Of a stretch of 64,000 bases of DNA, positions 3,313 through 54,051 are shown piece by piece (the first letter of the stretch is position 1; each line of letters opens with the position of its first letter). The notes below the pieces were generated by a model. That model saw nothing but the letters and a program-made list of their open reading frames with translations, made no database searches and was not told the DNA's origin. This DNA comes from Roseobacter sp. MH60115. Its GTDB lineage: Bacteria; Pseudomonadota; Alphaproteobacteria; Rhodobacterales; Rhodobacteraceae. The stretch spans positions 1 through 64,000 of the forward strand of contig NZ_JADOBQ010000007.1 of the NCBI RefSeq assembly GCF_015644665.1. The letters run 5' to 3'. The position numbers and the translations under genes are program-made.

Positions 3313-4148
3313 TTGACCGCCCCCGATGTGATGCCCCGGATGAGCTGGCGTGAGAAGATCACGTAGAGCACCATCACCGGCAGGATCGCCATCGACAGCG
3401 CCGACAGCACCGCATTCCAATCCGTCACGAATTGCCCGATAAAGACCTGGCTGCCGAGCGTCAGGGTTTTCACCTCTTCCGCCGGGGCGAGGATCAGCGG
3501 GAACCACAGGTCATTCCAGATCGGGATCATGTTGAACACCGCCACAGTTGCCATGGCCGGGCGGACCAGCGGCAAGACCAGACGGAAGAAGATTTTGTAT
3601 TCAGACAGCCCATCAATACGGCCTGCGTTCTTAAGATCGTCCGAGACCCCTTTCATGAACTCGCTGAGAATGAAGACCGCAAGCGGCAGGCCCTGCGCCG
3701 TGTAGACAAGGATCAGCGCCACAAGGGTGTTCACCAGCCCGGTCGATACCATCATCTCCAGGATGGCCACGGTCCCGATCCGGATGGGGATCATGATCCC
3801 CAGCGCCAGATAGAGGCCCATCAGCGTGTTGCCCTTGAACCGATATTCCGCCAGTGCAAAGGCCGCCATGGCCCCGAACAGCAGGATCAGCGTCAGAGAG
3901 ACCACCGTGACGATCATGGAATTCTGGAAGTAGAGAAAGAAATCCCCCTGCTTGAACACGGTCTGATAGCCGATGAGCGAAAACGTCTCCTCGGTCGGCA
4001 GGCCCAACGGGTCCCGAAAAATCGCGCGGCGTGTCTTGAAGCTGTTGATCAGGATCACGAAAACCGGGAACAGCGCGATGATCGTGTAGGTGATCAGAAC
4101 GGCATGGGCCGCTATGGCGGTGCCGGGGATGCGTCGGGTCTGGGTCAT
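3309..4148 (-). CDS. Sugar ABC transporter permease (MalG/UgpE type)
   Basis: A 279-residue inner-membrane permease with about six hydrophobic segments, beginning MTQTRRIPG followed by a long first membrane helix. The EAA loop that docks on the ATPase is visible as the NAGRIDGLSEYKIFFRLVLP stretch. The ATG at 4148 is preferred over longer in-frame extensions because it sits 10 bp after the upstream permease stop. Together with the other permease it forms the channel of a CUT1-type carbohydrate importer. Confidence 0.92.
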   Translation of the reverse strand: MTQTRRIPGTAIAAHAVLITYTIIALFPVFVILINSFKTRRAIFRDPLGLPTEETFSLIGYQTVFKQGDFFLYFQNSMIVTVVSLTLILLFGAMAAFALAEYRFKGNTLMGLYLALGIMIPIRIGTVAILEMMVSTGLVNTLVALILVYTAQGLPLAVFILSEFMKGVSDDLKNAGRIDGLSEYKIFFRLVLPLVRPAMATVAVFNMIPIWNDLWFPLILAPAEEVKTLTLGSQVFIGQFVTDWNAVLSALSMAILPVMVLYVIFSRQLIRGITSGAVK

Positions 4149-11469: not shown

Positions 11470-13503
11470 TCAGTTGGCGTCCGCGCCGACCTCGTTGAGC
11501 GGCGCCGGGCGCGCAATGAAAAACCCTTGAATCTGGTCGCACTGATGAAGGGCGAGCCAGTCATATTGATCTTGGGTTTCGACGCCTTCGGCAACGATCG
11601 TGGCGCCAATCTGTTTCCCCAGCGACAGGATCAGACGGATGATCGGGCCGGATTTTGGAAGCTGGCTCACGAAGGACTGATCAATCTTGACGCAACTTAG
11701 GGGAATTCGGGAGATGTAGGATAGATTGGAGTATCCGGTACCGAAATCATCAATTGCGATCCGGTACCCCATATCGGTGATCTCTTTCAGCTTGGATGCG
11801 ATGTCGTCAAGGTCGCCGATCAGAACGTTCTCGGTGATTTCCAACTCTATCCTGTCGGTCGGGAAGCCGGGTTTCTTTGCAAAGGTTTCCAGCATTTCCG
11901 TGAGCCGGTCATCCGCGAACTGACGCGGCGAGATGTTGAGGGAAAGATGCATGTATTCCCCGGCTTCCTGCCATCTCATTGCCTGCTCGAAACCGAGCTC
12001 CAGAACTTGCTGCCCAAGATGGTCGATCATGCCGGTCTCTTCGCAGATCGGGATGAACTTGTTGGGGCCCACGACGCCCTTTTCAGGGTGGTTCCAACGC
12101 ACCAGACCTTCCATGGACACGACATTTCCGGACCGAAGATCGATCCTGGGCTGGTAGTACAGGACGAATTCGCGCCGCTTCAGTGCCGCTTCAATCTCCG
12201 CCTTGAAGCGCGCGCGGTCCAACGCGGCAGCGCCCATTTCATCGGTGTAGGTCGTGTATCTGTTCCGACCCTCGCGCTTTGACTGATAGAGCGCGATGTC
12301 GGCCTGACGCAGTGCGGATTCGAAATCGGTTTGCGCCGGGGCGAAATCCGTGATGCCCATGCTGACATTGACATCGATATTGGTTGGCCCCTGCCCGACA
12401 GGCCCCGACAGGTTGCGGAACAGGGCCTTTGCCTTTTGATGGGGGTGCACACAGCCTACGTCTTCATAGAGCAGAATGGCAAACTCGTCGCCGCCGAGGC
12501 GCACCACGATATCCTCGGGGCCAACCGCCTCCTGCGCACGCACTGCAAGCTCTTTCAACACGTTGTCACCCGCTTCGTGCCCGAAGGTATCATTGACACT
12601 CTTGAAGCGGTCCACGTCGAAATAAACCAGCGTGCATTGCATTGCCTCGGTGCTGGCAAGGCCTTCGATGAGCCGGTGCATGAAGGCCCGGTTGTAGCAT
12701 CCCGTCAGCTGATCTCTGTCAGCAAGGTAGCGCGCCTTGTCCCGCGCAATTTTCAGCTCGCTGACATCGAATGCCGTCAGCAAAACGGCCGGTTGGCCGG
12801 TGACAGCATCGCTGCAGAGTTTGGCGGAGAGATCAAACCAACGCTTGCCGGTCGAGGTCTTTACCTTGGCAACCATCCGATGTTCACCGGAACCATCCAG
12901 TTCGAACATCATCACGTGGTAATCTTTTGAGTTTACAAAAAGTTTCAGGAAGCTGATGGACGGACCGCCGATGGAGTTACGCGCCGCCGGGTTCATGTAG
13001 AGCGCCGGACCGTCGAGTTCGAAAAGAGCAATCTTCACGTCCGTATGCAACAACGCTTCGGCGCTGCGCAGATTGTCCGGCTCGCTGTCCGCCCTTTCGA
13101 GCACTTCGCACTGCATCGCCATGCGGCCGTCCGGCAGGCGGAATCCGCGAAAAGCGACGCTGGAACTGACGGGTTTGCCGTTAGGATACAACGTCCACAT
13201 TTCGCGGAACGTGGTCTGACGCTCAATGAAATCTGTCTGGTATTGCTTCAGTCTTTTGGCGACCGTGGACGACATGCCCTTGGACATGTCTCGCGCACAG
13301 AGATCTTCTTCGCTCTCTGCCTGCCACATCCGGCAGGCCTGTGCATTCGCATAGACGACCCGGCAGTTGTCGACATCATAGACCCAGACAGGGGTCGACA
13401 GATTCCGCGCGCCCGAAAATAGATCGAGAACAGCATGCGCTTCACTGGCGATGTGGTCAGTGTCGCTGATGTCCTCTTCCGATTTCGCCTTCTTTGCGTG
13501 CAT
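11470..13503 (-). CDS. PAS-GGDEF-EAL cyclic-di-GMP signalling protein
   Basis: A 677-residue protein without evident membrane segments. Two PAS-like regions (about 35-130 and 145-255) precede a GGDEF domain (about 258-425; GGDEF at 337-341) and an EAL domain (about 432-670). The diguanylate cyclase signature is intact, but the position of the inhibitory RxxD site reads GPED, so product inhibition is probably lost. The EAL motif is written EGLVRW; the other phosphodiesterase residues (LSLNISPRQF, ELEITEN, AIDDFGTGYS, VKID, AEGVET) are present. Both activities are therefore plausible. Confidence 0.93.
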   Translation of the reverse strand: MHAKKAKSEEDISDTDHIASEAHAVLDLFSGARNLSTPVWVYDVDNCRVVYANAQACRMWQAESEEDLCARDMSKGMSSTVAKRLKQYQTDFIERQTTFREMWTLYPNGKPVSSSVAFRGFRLPDGRMAMQCEVLERADSEPDNLRSAEALLHTDVKIALFELDGPALYMNPAARNSIGGPSISFLKLFVNSKDYHVMMFELDGSGEHRMVAKVKTSTGKRWFDLSAKLCSDAVTGQPAVLLTAFDVSELKIARDKARYLADRDQLTGCYNRAFMHRLIEGLASTEAMQCTLVYFDVDRFKSVNDTFGHEAGDNVLKELAVRAQEAVGPEDIVVRLGGDEFAILLYEDVGCVHPHQKAKALFRNLSGPVGQGPTNIDVNVSMGITDFAPAQTDFESALRQADIALYQSKREGRNRYTTYTDEMGAAALDRARFKAEIEAALKRREFVLYYQPRIDLRSGNVVSMEGLVRWNHPEKGVVGPNKFIPICEETGMIDHLGQQVLELGFEQAMRWQEAGEYMHLSLNISPRQFADDRLTEMLETFAKKPGFPTDRIELEITENVLIGDLDDIASKLKEITDMGYRIAIDDFGTGYSNLSYISRIPLSCVKIDQSFVSQLPKSGPIIRLILSLGKQIGATIVAEGVETQDQYDWLALHQCDQIQGFFIARPAPLNEVGADAN

Positions 13504-47411: not shown

Positions 47412-47876
47412 CTAAGAAGACGCTTTCATCGTCCCCTTGACGGACGGCAACCCGCCGTTCTTGCTTTCGACGAAGACTTCCAACTCGACGGTATCGATCT
47501 TGGACCAAACTGCAGTTCCGACCTTGTGACCCCCCCAGCCTGCCGCGGCGCCCACGGCAAACCCGCCGACAAGGGACACCAGATCAGATCGTCCCGACAC
47601 CGCAGCGATGCCCGCCCCGCCGAGCCCGGACATGAAGGCGGTGACAAACTCTGAACTCTCCTTCTCGCCCAGTTTGAAATCGGTCTTTTCAACGACCTTC
47701 CGGGCAAATTCCTTCTGTGCGTCGTCCAGTTCCTGATAGTTCTCAAAAACCGCCTGCGCTTCCGCATCGACGTCCGCGGCAGCATCAAGCGTGACGGTGT
47801 TGCCGTCGGCCAGTGCTTCGATGTTGCGCTTGTTCTGGACAATACTCGTCACGGGGCGTGTCGATTGAATGATCAT
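47412..47876 (-). CDS. Hypothetical protein between cycA and the replicon
   Basis: A 154-residue protein, no signal peptide. The N-terminal half is acidic and helical (DAEAQAVFENYQELDDAQKEF); the middle has small-residue-rich segments (FMSGLGGAGIAAVSG, GGFAVGAAAGWGGHKVG) resembling a glycine-zipper membrane hairpin. Co-directional with the replication initiator, about 115 bp downstream of it. I do not recognise a family; a role in plasmid biology is possible from position only. Confidence 0.65.
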   Translation of the reverse strand: MIIQSTRPVTSIVQNKRNIEALADGNTVTLDAAADVDAEAQAVFENYQELDDAQKEFARKVVEKTDFKLGEKESSEFVTAFMSGLGGAGIAAVSGRSDLVSLVGGFAVGAAAGWGGHKVGTAVWSKIDTVELEVFVESKNGGLPSVKGTMKASS

Positions 47877-47992: not shown

Positions 47993-48676
47993 CTAGGTTG
48001 TGATCCGCACCTCTGACACCTCGGCATCCACATCCTGACAGGCCGCCAACAGACGCCGCTGCAGATGTGTCTGCACGTAACCTGCATGAAACTTCGACGG
48101 GGCGCGCAGGGTCAATCGCCCCCCTGCCCTCTCCACACGCTCCAGCGCCGCGATCCAGCTGGCATAGGTGCCCGTATCCTCCGTGTGCAACAACAGCCGG
48201 GCAAGCGCCCATTCCGTGCCGCTGGACGTGTCTGGCGTGGCGACCGTCCCACGCACCGGCAAGGGCACGACCTGCTGAGGCAGCACCTCCCCCTGCCCCA
48301 TGCGTATTTCGAAATCAGAGCCGACACAGGCCCATGTGATGGCGGTGTCCGTCAACAGTTGCTCGATGCCCAATCCGTATTGCGTGACACGCCCGCGCGC
48401 GCCCTGGCGTTTCACCACCAGCCAGCCCCGCCCGCGCAACTGCGCCATCTCGCGTTTCACAGTGCGTTCATCAACGGACCACAGCCGCGCGATTTCGCGC
48501 TGCCCCACGGCAAGCTCGTCGCGGGCCCAGTTGTAGCGCGCTGTGATCAGGGTCATCAGTCGGAGCGCTCTGCGCTGATCATGCTTGCCCTGCGACAGGG
48601 CAAAAGCCCCGAGCGCGGTCAGCAGATCGTATTTACGTGCAGACGCCCCACGACCTACCGGTTTCGTGGAAAGCAT
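47993..48676 (-). CDS. DnaA-like plasmid replication initiator
   Basis: A 227-residue protein. The N-terminal half contains a winged-HTH pattern (ELAVGQREIARLWSVDERTV, then KREMAQLRGRGWLVVKRQG). The C-terminal 70 residues (ASWIAALERVERAGGRLTLR, APSKFHAGYVQTHLQ) resemble domain I/N-terminal domain of DnaA (W..L.....g..l.l.aP..f...). This matches the DnaA-like replicase type described for Rhodobacteraceae plasmids, found next to parAB with the initiator divergent. It would bind the iterons in 48.85-48.98 kb and start replication. Confidence 0.82.
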   Translation of the reverse strand: MLSTKPVGRGASARKYDLLTALGAFALSQGKHDQRRALRLMTLITARYNWARDELAVGQREIARLWSVDERTVKREMAQLRGRGWLVVKRQGARGRVTQYGLGIEQLLTDTAITWACVGSDFEIRMGQGEVLPQQVVPLPVRGTVATPDTSSGTEWALARLLLHTEDTGTYASWIAALERVERAGGRLTLRAPSKFHAGYVQTHLQRRLLAACQDVDAEVSEVRITT

Positions 48677-49142: not shown

Positions 49143-49156
49143 GTCCCCGCGGGGAC
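49143..49156. promoter_or_regulatory. Partition-type palindrome 1 (upstream of parA)
   Basis: GTCCCCGCGGGGAC, 20 bp before the parA ATG; the only one of six copies outside coding sequence, well placed for autoregulation. Confidence 0.7.
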
Positions 49157-49175
49157 AGAAGATAACAGGCATTCC

Positions 49176-50480
49176 ATGTTTACACATACGGATCTGGCAC
49201 GGCTGCAGGCGCAATCGCTTAAGATGCAGGGGTTCATTCGGCAGCAGACCTATAGCCCGCAGAACGAAAAGACCCTGCGCCGCTTTTCCAGCTGGGAAGT
49301 GGCCGAGCTGATCTTCAAGGTGAACCAGTCCACGATGCGGGGGCGGCTGGCAGCAGACCCTACCCTGCCCCAGGGCACGGTAGAGGCCGATGGCCGCCAG
49401 CATTGGTACAGCCTCGAAGAGATCAACGAGCTGCGCCGCCGTCTCAAGGTGAACCGCAAGTCTCTGATGCCTTACCGACCGGACGGCAAACGGGCGATGC
49501 GCGCCGCCATCGCGAATTTCAAAGGCGGCGCGGGCAAGTCCACTGTCGCCCTGCACTTTGCCCATGCCGCGGCCCTGGACGGCTACCGCGTACTCTGCGT
49601 GGATTTTGACCCGCAGGCCACGCTCAGCCATTCGATGGGCCTCAGTGATGTGGCCGAGGAGTACACCGTCTGGGGCATCATGGCGCGCGATCTGGCGAGC
49701 GAGACGGAGCGGATGAACCGTGCCAGCCAAGGGGCGGAGAGCGGCACCGCCCTTCCCCAACGCCGCCTGCCCGCCAGCATCACCGACATGGGGCTTGCCG
49801 ACCTGCGTGCGGCGGATTTCATCAAGCCCACGAACTGGCCGACCATCGATATCGTGCCCTCCTGCGCCAATGCGGCCTTTGTGGAGTTTGCCTCTGCCCA
49901 ATACCGGCATCTGAACCCCGAATGGTCGTTCTTTGCTGCTGTCTCGCGCTTCCTTGATCAACTGCCTGCGGATGCCTATGATCTGGTGCTGTTCGACTGC
50001 CCGCCCGCCATTGGGTATCAGTCGATGAACGCGGTCTTCGCCGCCGACATGCTCTACATCCCCTCTGGTCCGGGCTATTGGGAGTACGACAGCACCACGT
50101 CATTCATCGGTCAGCTGTCCGAGGCGTTGGAGGATCTCAGCCGCTTCAACGGCCTTGTCCCCGCGGGGACAATGAACCTGCCCAAGGCGTTTCTGGACCT
50201 GCGGTTCCTGCTCACTAGGTTCGAGCCCAACAACGACCTGCACCGCGCGATGCAGCAGGCCTTCATCAAGGTCTGGGGCGATAGAGTGGCCGAACACCCG
50301 ATTGAGATGACCCGCGCGGTGGAGCAATCGGGCCGGTTCCTGTCCTCGATCTACGAGATCGACTACCGCGACATGACACGCGAAACCTGGCGGCGGGCCC
50401 GGGCGAGTTTCGATCAGGCCTACGGGGAGTTTCACAGACATCTCTGCGCGGCCTGGGATCAATTGGAGGATGAGGCATGA
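49176..50480 (+). CDS. parA: Plasmid partition ATPase ParA (RepA type)
   Basis: A 434-residue protein with an N-terminal DNA-binding region (about 20-95; RFSSWEVAELIFKVNQSTMRG is helix-turn-helix-like) and a deviant Walker ATPase from about residue 107. FKGGAGKST is at 115-123, VDFDPQATLS is Walker A', and LVLFDCPPAIGYQS is Walker B. It segregates plasmid copies together with ParB. Palindrome 2 lies inside it, read as VPAGT. It overlaps parB by 4 bp. Confidence 0.95.
   Translation: MFTHTDLARLQAQSLKMQGFIRQQTYSPQNEKTLRRFSSWEVAELIFKVNQSTMRGRLAADPTLPQGTVEADGRQHWYSLEEINELRRRLKVNRKSLMPYRPDGKRAMRAAIANFKGGAGKSTVALHFAHAAALDGYRVLCVDFDPQATLSHSMGLSDVAEEYTVWGIMARDLASETERMNRASQGAESGTALPQRRLPASITDMGLADLRAADFIKPTNWPTIDIVPSCANAAFVEFASAQYRHLNPEWSFFAAVSRFLDQLPADAYDLVLFDCPPAIGYQSMNAVFAADMLYIPSGPGYWEYDSTTSFIGQLSEALEDLSRFNGLVPAGTMNLPKAFLDLRFLLTRFEPNNDLHRAMQQAFIKVWGDRVAEHPIEMTRAVEQSGRFLSSIYEIDYRDMTRETWRRARASFDQAYGEFHRHLCAAWDQLEDEA
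50156..50171. promoter_or_regulatory. Partition-type palindrome 2 (inside parA)
   Basis: TGTCCCCGCGGGGACA, perfect over 16 bp; translated as V-P-A-G-T in a ParA loop after LSRFNGL. Confidence 0.7.
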
Positions 50481-51532
50481 GCAAGCGACGCGTCTTTGAC
50501 ATCGACTTCGACGAGGCGGCTGTCCCCGCGGGGACGGAAGAGGCCCCTGCCCGCCGTGGCCCCATGGCAGCGGCGATTTCCGAGAACGCGGATGCTCTGA
50601 GCGCGCGCCAGGCGGCAGAGGCCGAGATCCGGGCCGAGAATGATCGGCTCGCCCATGAATACGTGGCGCTCAAGAAAAACGGCCAGATTGTCGGGATGGT
50701 GGCGCTGGACCAGATCACGACGGTGAAACTGATCCGCGACCGGTCGGCGGATCGCGACCCTGATCTGGACGAGTTGAAAGCCTCCATTCTGGCCGTGGGC
50801 CTGTCCAATCCGATCCATGTGGAGGAAGTTGCCGACGGCTATGAGCTTATTCAAGGCTTTCGTCGTCTCAGCGCCTACCGCGAGCTTTTTGCCGAAACCG
50901 GTGAGGCGCGTTTTGCGCAGATCCCAGCGACGCTGCAGGCGCGCGGCGCGCAGCTCGATCACCTCTACCGGCGCATGGTCGATGAGAACCTCGTGCGGCG
51001 CGATATCTCCTTTGCGGAGATGGCGCAGCTGGCCATGTCCTATGCCAACCGGAGCGGGCAAAGCGTGGCGTCGGCGATCGAGGCGCTCTATGCCTCTGCC
51101 GGACGGCAGAAACGCAGCTACATCCGGCATTTTGCACAGCTGCTGACGGTGCTGGGCGGTGATTTGAAACACCCCGAGGGAATCCCCCGGGCCACGGGCT
51201 TGAGCCTGGTGAAACTGCTGGAGGAAAACCAGCGCTTTGCCGGACAGGTGCGCGCGGTGTTGAACAGCCAACCGGACCGCGATGCCGCCCTGGAACTCTC
51301 CTTGCTGCGCAGCGCCGTCAGTGGCGGGCAGGCTAAGCCGAAAAAAGCCAAGGCGCCGACGCCCAGATCGTCTGCCAAAACCACCATCAAACTGAACCGT
51401 CCGGAGGGGGTTGCGAAATGCACCGCGTCTTCTGGTCGGTTCGAGGTGACGCTGGATCACGATTTCGGATCCATCGAGCCGCGTCGGCTGGAGGCTGCCG
51501 CACGCGCGTTTCTGGACAGTCTCAAGGATTAG
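50477..51532 (+). CDS. parB: Plasmid partition protein ParB
   Basis: A 351-residue ParB/RepB protein. The ParB N-terminal nuclease-like domain covers about 70-165 (RSADRDPDLDELKASILAVGLSNPIHVEEV; GYELIQGFRRLSAYREL), with a central HTH (ISFAEMAQLAMSYANRSG) and a basic linker. It binds centromere sites for ParA. Palindrome 3 lies at residues 16-20. Its TAG stop overlaps the bchO stop on the other strand. Confidence 0.95.
   Translation: MSKRRVFDIDFDEAAVPAGTEEAPARRGPMAAAISENADALSARQAAEAEIRAENDRLAHEYVALKKNGQIVGMVALDQITTVKLIRDRSADRDPDLDELKASILAVGLSNPIHVEEVADGYELIQGFRRLSAYRELFAETGEARFAQIPATLQARGAQLDHLYRRMVDENLVRRDISFAEMAQLAMSYANRSGQSVASAIEALYASAGRQKRSYIRHFAQLLTVLGGDLKHPEGIPRATGLSLVKLLEENQRFAGQVRAVLNSQPDRDAALELSLLRSAVSGGQAKPKKAKAPTPRSSAKTTIKLNRPEGVAKCTASSGRFEVTLDHDFGSIEPRRLEAAARAFLDSLKD
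50522..50535. promoter_or_regulatory. Partition-type palindrome 3 (inside parB)
   Basis: GTCCCCGCGGGGAC with T before and G after; read as VPAGT in the N-terminal linker of ParB. Confidence 0.7.
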
Positions 51533-52392
51533 GTTTCCAGGAAATCTCTGATGTGTGCCACGACTTCTTTCGGCGCTTCTTCATGAGCGAGATGGCCGAG
51601 GCGCGGCAGGTCGATCACGCGTGCGTCACGCATGCGCTTTGCTGCTTCGTGAGAGACCTTTGCCGGGACCGCGCCATCCTTGCCGCCTGCGAGGAACAGC
51701 ACCTGGCTCGCAATCTCAGGCAGCGCGCGCGACAATTGGGTCAGGGACCATTGCGACATCATGAGCAATGTGGCGTCGACATGATCACGATCTGCCACCA
51801 GGCGGCGATAAAGATCCAGGCCCTCCGCGTCCAGTTCAGAGCCTGTACCCCTTATTAGAGCCTTGATCCGCGCCGGTGATGCGGCGGTGGCCGAGAACAG
51901 GCTGGCGCTGAACGGAATGGCCGCCAGCATCTTGGCGAGCGCGGGAAAGAGTACGCCAGCGATGCCGTCAAATGTGTCCAGTGCGGGATTGATGCCGGCA
52001 ATTCTGAGAGGTTGTCCCCGCGGGGACAGCATCAATTGCGACAGTCGCAACGCCAGCGCGCAGCCTGCGGAATGGCCGATGATGATGTCGGGGTGCCAGT
52101 CTTCCTGATCGCAGAGTGCCTTGATGTCTTCGGCCATGGGGTTCAGCCCGCACCGATGTCTGGCCCCCAGCTGCGTGAACCCTTGCCCGGGCAGGTCGAG
52201 CGCAACGATATGATAGCTTTCCCGAAGCTCGGCCATCAGCCCGCGCATGGAATGGGTGCTGCCCCCGGCACCGTGCAGCATCAGCATCGTCGGGCCTGCG
52301 CCGGTTTCCTGAATGTGCCATCTGTGCGGTGCGGCAAGCACCTGGCGTGACAGCGCCGCATTCGGCCAATCTGGAGGGGGTGGCCAACGCAT
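51529..52392 (-). CDS. bchO: Alpha/beta hydrolase BchO
   Basis: A 287-residue alpha/beta hydrolase, long associated with bchI-bchD as a putative Mg-chelatase accessory factor. LMLHGAGGSTHSMRGL is the oxyanion-hole region, IIGHSAGCALAL the nucleophile elbow (Ser in GHSAG), LAGGKDGAVPA the Asp strand and LGHLAHEEAP the His. Its precise reaction is not established. Palindrome 4 is read as SPRGQ after the nucleophile helix. It is the last gene of crtA-bchI-bchD-bchO, ending tail-to-tail on parB. Confidence 0.92.
   Translation of the reverse strand: MRWPPPPDWPNAALSRQVLAAPHRWHIQETGAGPTMLMLHGAGGSTHSMRGLMAELRESYHIVALDLPGQGFTQLGARHRCGLNPMAEDIKALCDQEDWHPDIIIGHSAGCALALRLSQLMLSPRGQPLRIAGINPALDTFDGIAGVLFPALAKMLAAIPFSASLFSATAASPARIKALIRGTGSELDAEGLDLYRRLVADRDHVDATLLMMSQWSLTQLSRALPEIASQVLFLAGGKDGAVPAKVSHEAAKRMRDARVIDLPRLGHLAHEEAPKEVVAHIRDFLET
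52013..52028. promoter_or_regulatory. Partition-type palindrome 4 (inside bchO)
   Basis: TGTCCCCGCGGGGACA, perfect over 16 bp, in a different reading phase from the other coding copies (S-P-R-G-Q). Confidence 0.7.
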
Positions 52393-52398
52393 GGGTCG

Positions 52399-54051
52399 CT
52401 ACCCCTGCAGAGTGGCGCTCACAGCGCCTGTGAGCGCCTGTGCGTCTGCGCGGGGCAATGGGAGGTACTGACCGTCGAATTGGCCTGCCAGGGCCTTCAG
52501 GCCTGCCTGTGGGCGCGCGGACATGTCGATGACCAGCGTCTGAATGCTGTGAGCACGAAAAACACGGGCCATCTGTTCGGCGTCCTCCATCGCTTGAGTG
52601 CGGTTCCTGCTGCCATCCAGCGCGATATTCGCGCGCCCGTCGGTCAGCACGATCAATGTGGGTGTGAGGCCCTTGCTGCGTGTCTGTGTGGCCAGCGCCA
52701 GCGCCTGCTGCAACCCGGTGGCCAAAGGCGTGCCGCCGCCGCCGGGCAGGCTGGCCAGACGCCGTTTGGTCTGCACCAGGGATCGGGTGGGCGGCAACAG
52801 CAGGTCGGCGGTCGTTCCTCTGAAAGAGATCAGCGCCACGTGATCACGCGCCGCATAGGCCTGTGCCAGCAGCAGTTCAACGGCGCCCTTGGCTTCGTTC
52901 AGGCGGGATACGGCGGCGGAGCCGGAGGCGTCCACGGCAAAGATCAACAGCCGGTCGGACTGCTCGACATAGCGTTTCAGCCGGATATCAGACGGGCGGA
53001 TCAGCAATCCCGGCGTATCCGGCTGGGCCTTGCGTCGGATCGGCTGCCACGGCGCGGCGGCGCGCAGGGTCGCTATGAGATCGATCCGGCTGCGGCCGTC
53101 CAGCCTGCCGGGCCGGGAGGGCAGGGGCCGTCCCCGCCGATTGCCCTTGCGCTTTTGGCCCGCGCCGTCTCCGCCCATGCGCCGTCCTGTCCCCGCGGGG
53201 ACAAGCCCGGCCAGAAGGTCCGGCGGCAGAAGCGCCCGCACCGCTTCAACCAGCATGTCGCCTTCTGGCATGGGGGACGACGCGTCGCTTTCAGCTTCTT
53301 GGCTCGTTTCGGGATTGGGGGGTGGGGGCACCTGGTTTTCCGGTTCGGCTTGCGGCAGGCGTGTTGCCCGGTGCGGGAACACGAGAAGGGCCGCGACCTC
53401 CAGATCCGTCTGTTCCAGACATGTGCGCTTATGGGTGGCGGCGTGCACGCGGGCGACACGCAAGGCCATCAGCGGCGCGCGCAGGCTGTCGATGCCAAAC
53501 TGGGCCGCCAGCAGGGTCAGCGTCTCTGCATCCGCCGCGGAGGCCGTCACCGCTGCGGGCGTCACCGACAGTGTCCCCGCGGGGACAACCCGCCAGTCTT
53601 TTGGCATACGACCCTCTGGCGCGATGTGAAACGGCAGGCGTTCGGCGAGTGCAGGGGGGAGGGTTTCGTCCGGCTCGGCCCCCTCGTCCAGCGCGATGAG
53701 GCAATGACCGACATCGCGATCCACCTGATGGGCCAGCTTGGCGGCCAGATCACTGCCGCAGCGCTCGGCCATCCCGACAACCATCGTGCTTGGATCAGAT
53801 AATATTCCTTTATTTTCAATTACTTGAATGGAGTTCAAGGTTGCGCTGAGGTCGACACCTCCAAACAGTTGTTCATCGGAAATAGAGGGATGGATTCTGC
53901 GCATGTTCAGCGGTTGTAAGATGTTGAGCAGTCGGTCGCGATCCGGGCTGGCACGCATACGGATGGTCGCGCCCGCCAGGTATCCGGGGGCGGACAGCAG
54001 CAGGCGCAGGCAGAGCGCCGCGCGCGCCCAGCTGTCCGCGTCCGGCGTCAC
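52399..54051 (-). CDS. bchD: Magnesium chelatase subunit D
   Basis: A 550-residue protein with an N-terminal AAA-like domain lacking a good P-loop, a Pro/acid-rich linker (about 235-265), and a C-terminal integrin-I (VWA) domain with MIDAS residues DASGS at 374-378 and VLTDGRANI further on. It pairs with BchI hexamers to drive Mg insertion by BchH. The start is GTG at 54051, overlapping the bchI stop. It holds palindromes 5 and 6, read as VPAGT at residues 284-288 and 156-160. Confidence 0.95.
   Translation of the reverse strand: MTPDADSWARAALCLRLLLSAPGYLAGATIRMRASPDRDRLLNILQPLNMRRIHPSISDEQLFGGVDLSATLNSIQVIENKGILSDPSTMVVGMAERCGSDLAAKLAHQVDRDVGHCLIALDEGAEPDETLPPALAERLPFHIAPEGRMPKDWRVVPAGTLSVTPAAVTASAADAETLTLLAAQFGIDSLRAPLMALRVARVHAATHKRTCLEQTDLEVAALLVFPHRATRLPQAEPENQVPPPPNPETSQEAESDASSPMPEGDMLVEAVRALLPPDLLAGLVPAGTGRRMGGDGAGQKRKGNRRGRPLPSRPGRLDGRSRIDLIATLRAAAPWQPIRRKAQPDTPGLLIRPSDIRLKRYVEQSDRLLIFAVDASGSAAVSRLNEAKGAVELLLAQAYAARDHVALISFRGTTADLLLPPTRSLVQTKRRLASLPGGGGTPLATGLQQALALATQTRSKGLTPTLIVLTDGRANIALDGSRNRTQAMEDAEQMARVFRAHSIQTLVIDMSARPQAGLKALAGQFDGQYLPLPRADAQALTGAVSATLQG
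53188..53203. promoter_or_regulatory. Partition-type palindrome 5 (inside bchD)
   Basis: TGTCCCCGCGGGGACA, perfect over 16 bp, in the linker between the AAA-like and VWA domains. Confidence 0.7.
53572..53587. promoter_or_regulatory. Partition-type palindrome 6 (inside bchD)
   Basis: TGTCCCCGCGGGGACA, perfect over 16 bp, encoding VPAGT after KDWRV; 384 bp from copy 5, much like the 365 bp between copies 2 and 3. Confidence 0.7.

Follow-up and report, generated by a model that had tools for sequence, protein, structure and literature searches.

Putative parS palindromes of a photosynthesis-cluster-bearing, predicted DnaA-like I replicon extend into the coding sequences of bchO and bchD in Roseobacter sp. 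MH60115

A 14-bp palindrome, GTCCCCGCGGGGAC, occurs in six exact copies around the adjacent partition genes parA and parB of Roseobacter sp. MH60115, within a 64-kb stretch of DNA (64,000 nucleotides of contig NZ_JADOBQ010000007.1; hereafter the window) that carries photosynthesis genes. The six palindromes very probably constitute the parS array of a photosynthesis-cluster-bearing DnaA-like I replicon, and this array would extend from the partition genes into bchO and bchD. The copies start at 49143, 50157, 50522, 52014, 53189 and 53573, and no other copy was found in the window; 100 dinucleotide shuffles of the window contained none. Four of the six belong to the 16-mer TGTCCCCGCGGGGACA, with starts at 50156, 52013, 53188 and 53572. 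The genome as a whole, 4,760,986 bases over 19 contigs with the window on one of 130,866 bp, holds the same six copies, every one in a 4.4-kb cluster of identical sites at the partition operon. The reversed control pattern gave no match in this genome. An initial annotation of the window had reported the six positions, their uniqueness there and the four 16-mers, and all of these were exact.

Copy 1 (49143–49156) is intergenic and ends 19 bp before the parA ATG; it is probably a parS site and possibly an operator. The remaining copies are located inside genes. Copy 2 (50157–50170) in parA is part of an 18-bp perfect palindrome, TTGTCCCCGCGGGGACAA, and is read as VPAGT. Copy 3 (50522–50535) encodes the same peptide at residues 16–20 of ParB. 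Copy 4 (52014–52027), termed site O1, is read as LSPRGQ at residues 122–127 of BchO. Copies 5 (53189–53202, site D2) and 6 (53573–53586, site D1) encode VPAGT at residues 284–288 and 156–160 of BchD, respectively. Translation reproduced the placement and the frames of the initial annotation, with VPAGT once in parA, once in parB and twice in bchD, and SPRGQ in bchO.

The presence of the motif inside the photosynthesis genes follows the presence of the partition genes. Among 94 distinct BchD loci, 28 have a parB relative in the stretch examined; the exact motif lies within bchD or bchO of 24 of these and of none of the remaining 66 (Fisher p 1.4e-18, uncorrected for kinship). These loci are a non-random draw from contigs, plasmid records and whole genomes. 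They derive from 35 contig loci, seven plasmid records with a full bchD (two of Roseobacter, two of Sulfitobacter, and one each of Tateyamaria, Thalassococcus and Roseinatronobacter; the eighth record is that of S. alexandrii), 16 other Roseobacter genomes taken for having a BchD match, and 54 further genomes of the family, 44 taken in order of BchD score and 10 for holding the motif. Identical copies, and rows in which bchD covered fewer than 1000 bases, were removed before counting. A locus was scored as carrying parB when a tblastn match above 100 bits fell within it, and L159 was included despite having no ParA. Of 394 family genomes, 161 have a BchD match (E 1e-60). The motif occurs anywhere in the genome in 22 of these 161, and the bchD locus of each was taken in except that of G343. 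Apart from G343, the unsampled BchD genomes lack the motif altogether, which excludes an exact copy in their bchD or bchO. Within the genus Roseobacter, 14 of 19 genomes contain it.

The tree comprised 58 rows of BchD, BchO and BchI with the motif columns excluded, leaving out two partial loci (L023 and L194) and the parB-less rows under 53% BchD identity. In an independent-pairs test, 11 pairs differing in parB (starred branches) gave 8–10 concordant and no opposed pairs, with a median p of 0.004 over 200 random pairings. The counts of 24/28 and 0/66 strongly support the proposal of the initial annotation that a parS cluster, as these palindromes are predicted to be, extends from the plasmid backbone into neighboring photosynthesis genes. 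The extension is not a recent event in one strain, since many photosynthesis clusters with parAB share the bchD and bchO sites.

Four parB loci lack the exact motif in bchD and bchO, namely Sulfitobacter sp. S190 (L077), L198, L199 and L156. The last (G105:C6, 5762–9621), with a ParB 50% identical to that of the window, contains no exact motif; it has four copies of TGTTCCCCGCGGGGAACA, one of them preceding parA and the others within parB, bchO and bchD. Its occurrence in all four places shows that the photosynthesis-gene sites share the form of the sites beside parAB. No repeated 12-base palindrome core was found in the stretches examined of S190, S. guttiformis (RepB-III) and S. alexandrii, which have other partition systems; in S. 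alexandrii, parAB was not annotated in the 8 kb past the record start. In the S190 locus, parB and bchO flank a lone 24-bp palindrome, CAGGGTTACCCGCGGGTAACCCTG (11515–11538), which may be the parS of this divergent DnaA-like module.

The motif is read in all three frames among the loci, as VPAGT, as SPRGQ or SPRGH, and as CPRGD, which argues that the DNA is conserved and not the peptide. Selection on the proteins for these peptides, with no function of the DNA, could explain that VPAGT and SPRGQ recur at the same columns. However, 41 of the 47 VPAGT stretches in BchD and BchO are coded exactly GTC CCC GCG GGG ACA, for which the codon-usage product is approximately 0.003 (twelve loci), and the same DNA yields three different peptides. 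All 47 occurrences fall in the 28 parB loci and none in the 66 parB-less loci, so selection for the peptides is hardly credible. As the initial annotation anticipated for homologues, the site columns of loci without parAB hold other residues or gaps, except for remnants in four Roseobacter loci. In 13 Roseobacter loci with parAB, taken without conditioning on the motif, the 14-base sites D1, D2 and O1 show pairwise identities of 0.97–0.99, and their 30-bp flanks 0.44–0.74; the 39 site instances comprise 33 exact copies and 6 with one mismatch. Identity in the four parAB-less loci of the genus is 0.48–0.52 over these 14 bases and 0.39–0.71 in the flanks.

The encoded peptides lie in loops or in segments of low model confidence. 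In the BchD model (pTM 0.45), D2 falls in a segment with pLDDT below 50 (282–317) and D1 in a coil (144–164), and the VPAGT of ParB lies within the low-confidence first 28 residues of its model. The BchO loop bearing SPRGQ has a median of 19 residues (16–19) in the 21 loci with the motif in bchO versus 16 (13–24) in 60 parAB-less loci, with overlapping ranges.

Eroded forms of the sites were observed in photosynthesis clusters that lack parAB. One such cluster, L140, is located on a 4,133,097-bp contig (G395:C1), which we take to be most likely the R. denitrificans chromosome, in part from its place in the tree as sister of R. litoralis. The intact motif has no copy in the whole genome of L140. 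The sole three places with four or fewer mismatches of 16 in 13.1 kb are D1 (3 mismatches), D2 (2) and O1 (4), at homologous codons, and a fourth site, D3, has 6. Downstream of bchO in L140, the frames resemble the cytochrome c and hemA genes of the window, and no parB match was found in the stretch. The other three parAB-less Roseobacter loci, those of R. cerasinus (L014), L136 and L141, show 5 to 10 mismatches at D1, D2 and O1, and all four keep the 19-residue BchO loop. Given the tree, the simpler reading is that the sites of parAB-less loci were lost rather than not yet gained. The available passages of one study propose that the R. denitrificans photosynthesis cluster returned from a plasmid to the chromosome (PMC6052148), and the eroded sites of L140 fit this proposal. 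Such copies would be a trace, at the level of sequence, of former plasmid residence, and can serve to test the published scenario in which photosynthesis spread on DnaA-like I plasmids and then moved back to chromosomes. In Roseobacter insulae (L012, G397:C10), the photosynthesis cluster comes with parAB, a replicase and six intact sites, and lies on a 1,074,209-bp contig. Either this replicon is very large, or the module has been integrated and its sites have stayed intact.

The motif also accompanies parAB where photosynthesis genes are absent. Ten annotated plasmids without a photosynthesis cluster were read around parAB; seven hold the exact motif, each with an in-frame copy in parA. Three of the ten, two from Leisingera and one from Alloyangia, carry arrays of exact copies (12, 6 and 9) in the non-coding stretch after parB. 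Some replicons that offer the space thus do carry their arrays outside genes. The 12 copies 3´ of parB belong to L. methylohalidivorans; in both Leisingera plasmids, this one included, one further copy lies inside the following OmpA-family gene. Alloyangia has five more exact copies before parA, and Falsirhodobacter has one inside the replicase gene. Palindromes with the same CCCCGCGGGG core and TT...AA or GGTT...AACC ends were observed in the Paracoccus, Limimaricola and Marivivens plasmids.

The type of palindrome appears to co-vary with a residue of ParB. An unguided scan of columns was performed on 74 ParBs with either of two palindrome types within 4.5 kb, and R210 (numbering of the window ParB) showed the highest mutual information among the columns scanned. 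Arginine occupies this position in 51 of 51 ParBs near GTCCCC-type sites (G042 being counted twice among the 51) versus 1 of 23 near TTCCCC-type sites. In the AlphaFold model, R210 is the first residue of the predicted recognition helix; helix 197–204 followed by helix 210–226 forms a helix-turn-helix. In a Foldseek search, this model matches crystal structures of ParB and Noc best (E 1e-7, prob 1.00; TM 0.20–0.35 and rmsd 11–17 over the whole chain). The best PDB chain in the sequence-profile search is sulfiredoxin (E 1e-6), followed by ParB, Spo0J and Noc. The system offers a putative natural ParB-parS specificity pair for experiment. The second palindrome type, TTCCCCGCGGGGAA, is located near related ParBs (including L226, L229 and L231), nearly all without R210, and probably marks another compatibility group. 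Across the family, TTCCCCGCGGGGAA occurs in 46 of 394 genomes, many of which have small clusters of it among the matches listed.

Several observations weigh against the interpretation of the palindromes as a parS array read by ParB. L198 and L199, which are photosynthesis loci with related parAB, keep an exact match in parA alone. S190, with a divergent parAB (ParB 34%), has one other palindrome and none inside genes. L014, L136 and L141 are so eroded that most of their sites merge with the gene background. The co-variation with R210 is weakened by kinship: the tree contains only three type changes, two of them with a change at R210, and the pair test, with one pair, is powerless. The ParB of L156 keeps arginine at R210 despite its variant palindrome, and confidence in the ParB model is moderate (pTM 0.42). 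Finally, several genomes contain dispersed copies of the motif that a plasmid centromere does not explain, with 89 in G063, 64 in G247 and 14–17 in five others.

In G063, these copies are spread over many contigs, in and between open frames (stretches L285, L296, L301–L314 and L320), and those of G247 are likewise in and between open frames (L286, L299 and L315–L319). For 35 copies from 24 stretches of the two genomes, T precedes the motif at −1 in 30 and A follows at +1 in 34, with little conservation further out. Of the flank arm pairs, 3 of 1104 in G063 have at least 12 of 18 bases alike (best 12), and 7 of 220 in G247 (best 17), where some copies share flanks. The closest ParB relatives in both genomes align only from residue 72 of the window ParB. 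The relative in G063 adjoins bchO, and ParA and DnaA-like matches are absent from its 47.9-kb contig, to which the search for ParA was confined. In G247, just a 32% ParA-like match was found near the ParB relative in the 40 kb searched, again the only part of the genome in which ParA was sought. It is conceivable, though doubtful, that in at least one relative a plasmid ParB became a Noc-like protein that binds DNA across the chromosome. A plasmid ParB with sites inside genes would in that case have been recruited from partition into chromosome organization, with the photosynthesis cluster as its carrier.

Other functions of the palindromes can be weighed against these data. The replicase gene adjoins the cluster, and some relatives have copies on the replicase side (L228 has five exact copies in the interval from replicase to parA, and L225 has one within the replicase gene), as would be expected if the palindromes were replication-origin iterons and the DnaA-like replicase, not ParB, bound them. 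This explanation is improbable, because the motif lies beside the ParB relative of G063 on a contig with no DnaA-like or ParA match in its whole 47.9 kb, and beside parAB in L204 with no DnaA-like match in the 14 kb examined; the apparent co-variation of palindrome type with a residue of the predicted ParB recognition helix and the arrays after parB in three of the ten annotated plasmids also argue against it. A repetitive or mobile element that spreads by copying and has no binding function would account for several copies per replicon, for the dispersed copies in some genomes and for the partly shared flanks in G247. It is still less likely than iterons, given that the cluster copies share just 14–18 bp, the G063 flanks are hardly similar, conservation of the motif is gone without parAB, and L156 has a different palindrome in all four places.

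Regulators of photosynthesis genes of the PpsR type bind the consensus TGT-N12-ACA, and the outer TGT...ACA of the motif resembles it. The spacing in the motif is nevertheless 10 and not 12, the motif occurs around parAB in seven of ten annotated plasmids without photosynthesis genes there, and it is absent from bchD and bchO in 66 of 66 parAB-less loci. PpsR-like operators are thus most implausible.

The gene content agrees with a plasmid replication module placed inside a photosynthesis gene cluster. A DnaA-like I replicase, a DnaA N-terminal domain protein (47993–48676, minus strand), is divergent from parA; its match to Pfam DnaA_N (E 2.6e-5) scores 24.3 bits, and the cut-off is 24.6. The gene at this position is annotated as 'DnaA N-terminal domain-containing protein' in several related plasmids. 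A 154-aa open reading frame adjoining the replicase (47412–47876) has no Pfam match at E 0.001. The parA gene (49176–50480, plus strand) encodes 434 aa matching Pfam AAA_31 (E 7.8e-24); parA queries for the profile search started two codons upstream of the ATG, at 49170. The parB gene (50477–51532, plus strand) encodes 351 aa with a ParB N-terminal domain, a predicted helix-turn-helix and fold matches to ParB and Noc structures, although its match to Pfam ParB_N (E 7e-5) is under the curated cut-off. The adjacency of genes for a Walker-type ParA and a ParB is as in ParABS (type I) plasmid partition systems. On the minus strand, bchO (51529–52392; a Pfam alpha/beta hydrolase whose relatives are annotated bchO) and bchD (52399–54051; Mg-chelatase subunit D) run toward parB, as does bchI. 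The same arrangement of module and photosynthesis genes recurs on two other plasmids, R. ponti p1 and R. litoralis pRLO149_94, both of which annotate the replicase as hypothetical. With the DnaA-like replicase divergent from parAB and the module beside bchO, the DnaA-like I layout is present, and the replicon is assigned to group I by its likeness to R. litoralis, not by a replicase tree. A repABC replicon was considered and rejected: the palindrome is unlike the GTTNNNNGCNNNNAAC consensus, and a DnaA_N-type protein is found at the module, the only place in the genome where repC was sought. Far from these genes, at 3785–3802, the window contains an 18-bp perfect palindrome, TGGGGATCATGATCCCCA, in a single copy.

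We infer ParB binding and loading, and a role in segregation, from comparative sequence data. ParB would read each 16-bp site through its helix-turn-helix and load there, and the loaded sites would jointly form a partition complex that is moved by ParA. The genes parB and bchO converge, and their stops overlap by 4 bp, so that parB has no non-coding stretch behind it; the sites would then fall within bchO and bchD, in loops and linkers able to accommodate the encoded peptides, and lack of room may be what drove them there. Selection for ParB binding would fix the codons, making VPAGT and SPRGQ by-products of partition DNA. Once a photosynthesis cluster is without parAB, this constraint would be gone and the sites would decay.

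Within the literature searched, no text contains the 14-mer GTCCCCGCGGGGAC, and no paper joins parS with the photosynthesis gene cluster; the original description of DnaA-like plasmids (PubMed 21097494), which was not covered, may name the palindrome. The central place of the DnaA-like I module in the photosynthesis cluster has been published (PMC6052148, PMC6739100), and the available parts of these papers describe replicons of the type found here, with the module at the matching position in the cluster. The word stem 'palindrom' is absent from both papers; the stem 'pars' does not occur in PMC6739100 and occurs three times in PMC6052148, twice as 'parsimon-'. In repABC plasmids, according to the passages available, a single base change in the palindrome separates compatibility groups, and palindrome and ParB co-evolve (PMC5613091). 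Those 14-nt palindromes likewise lie beside the module; they belong to other replicons, and the passages contain no intragenic sites. In chromosomal ParB and Noc, a few residues in or near the recognition helix were shown by experiment to decide which palindrome is bound, as far as the portion of that paper available describes (PMC7383237). The present case, drawn from sequence comparison, involves a plasmid ParB family whose palindromes differ by G or T at position 7 counted from the centre.

The closest parallel is the parS of repABC plasmids, which the accessible text of PMC9040568 reports in neighboring open reading frames, including cas3, casA and casB of Rhodobacterales, with selection proposed even within coding sequence. 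In both systems, plasmid palindromes reach past the replication and partition operon into neighboring genes. The repABC sites belong to another replicon type with the GTTNNNNGCNNNNAAC consensus, and six contigs from six species are named there for the cas genes. Unlike that case, the sites described here were found in 24 loci, many with shared codon positions, in photosynthesis genes as hosts, with an independent-pairs test, a variant palindrome in all places of one replicon and decay in the absence of parAB. Intragenic parS is already known for repABC plasmids; putative parS sites in photosynthesis genes on a DnaA-like I replicon are new within the literature searched, and they offer a clear case of metabolic enzymes whose amino-acid sequences are, most likely, constrained by segregation DNA across a whole plasmid family.

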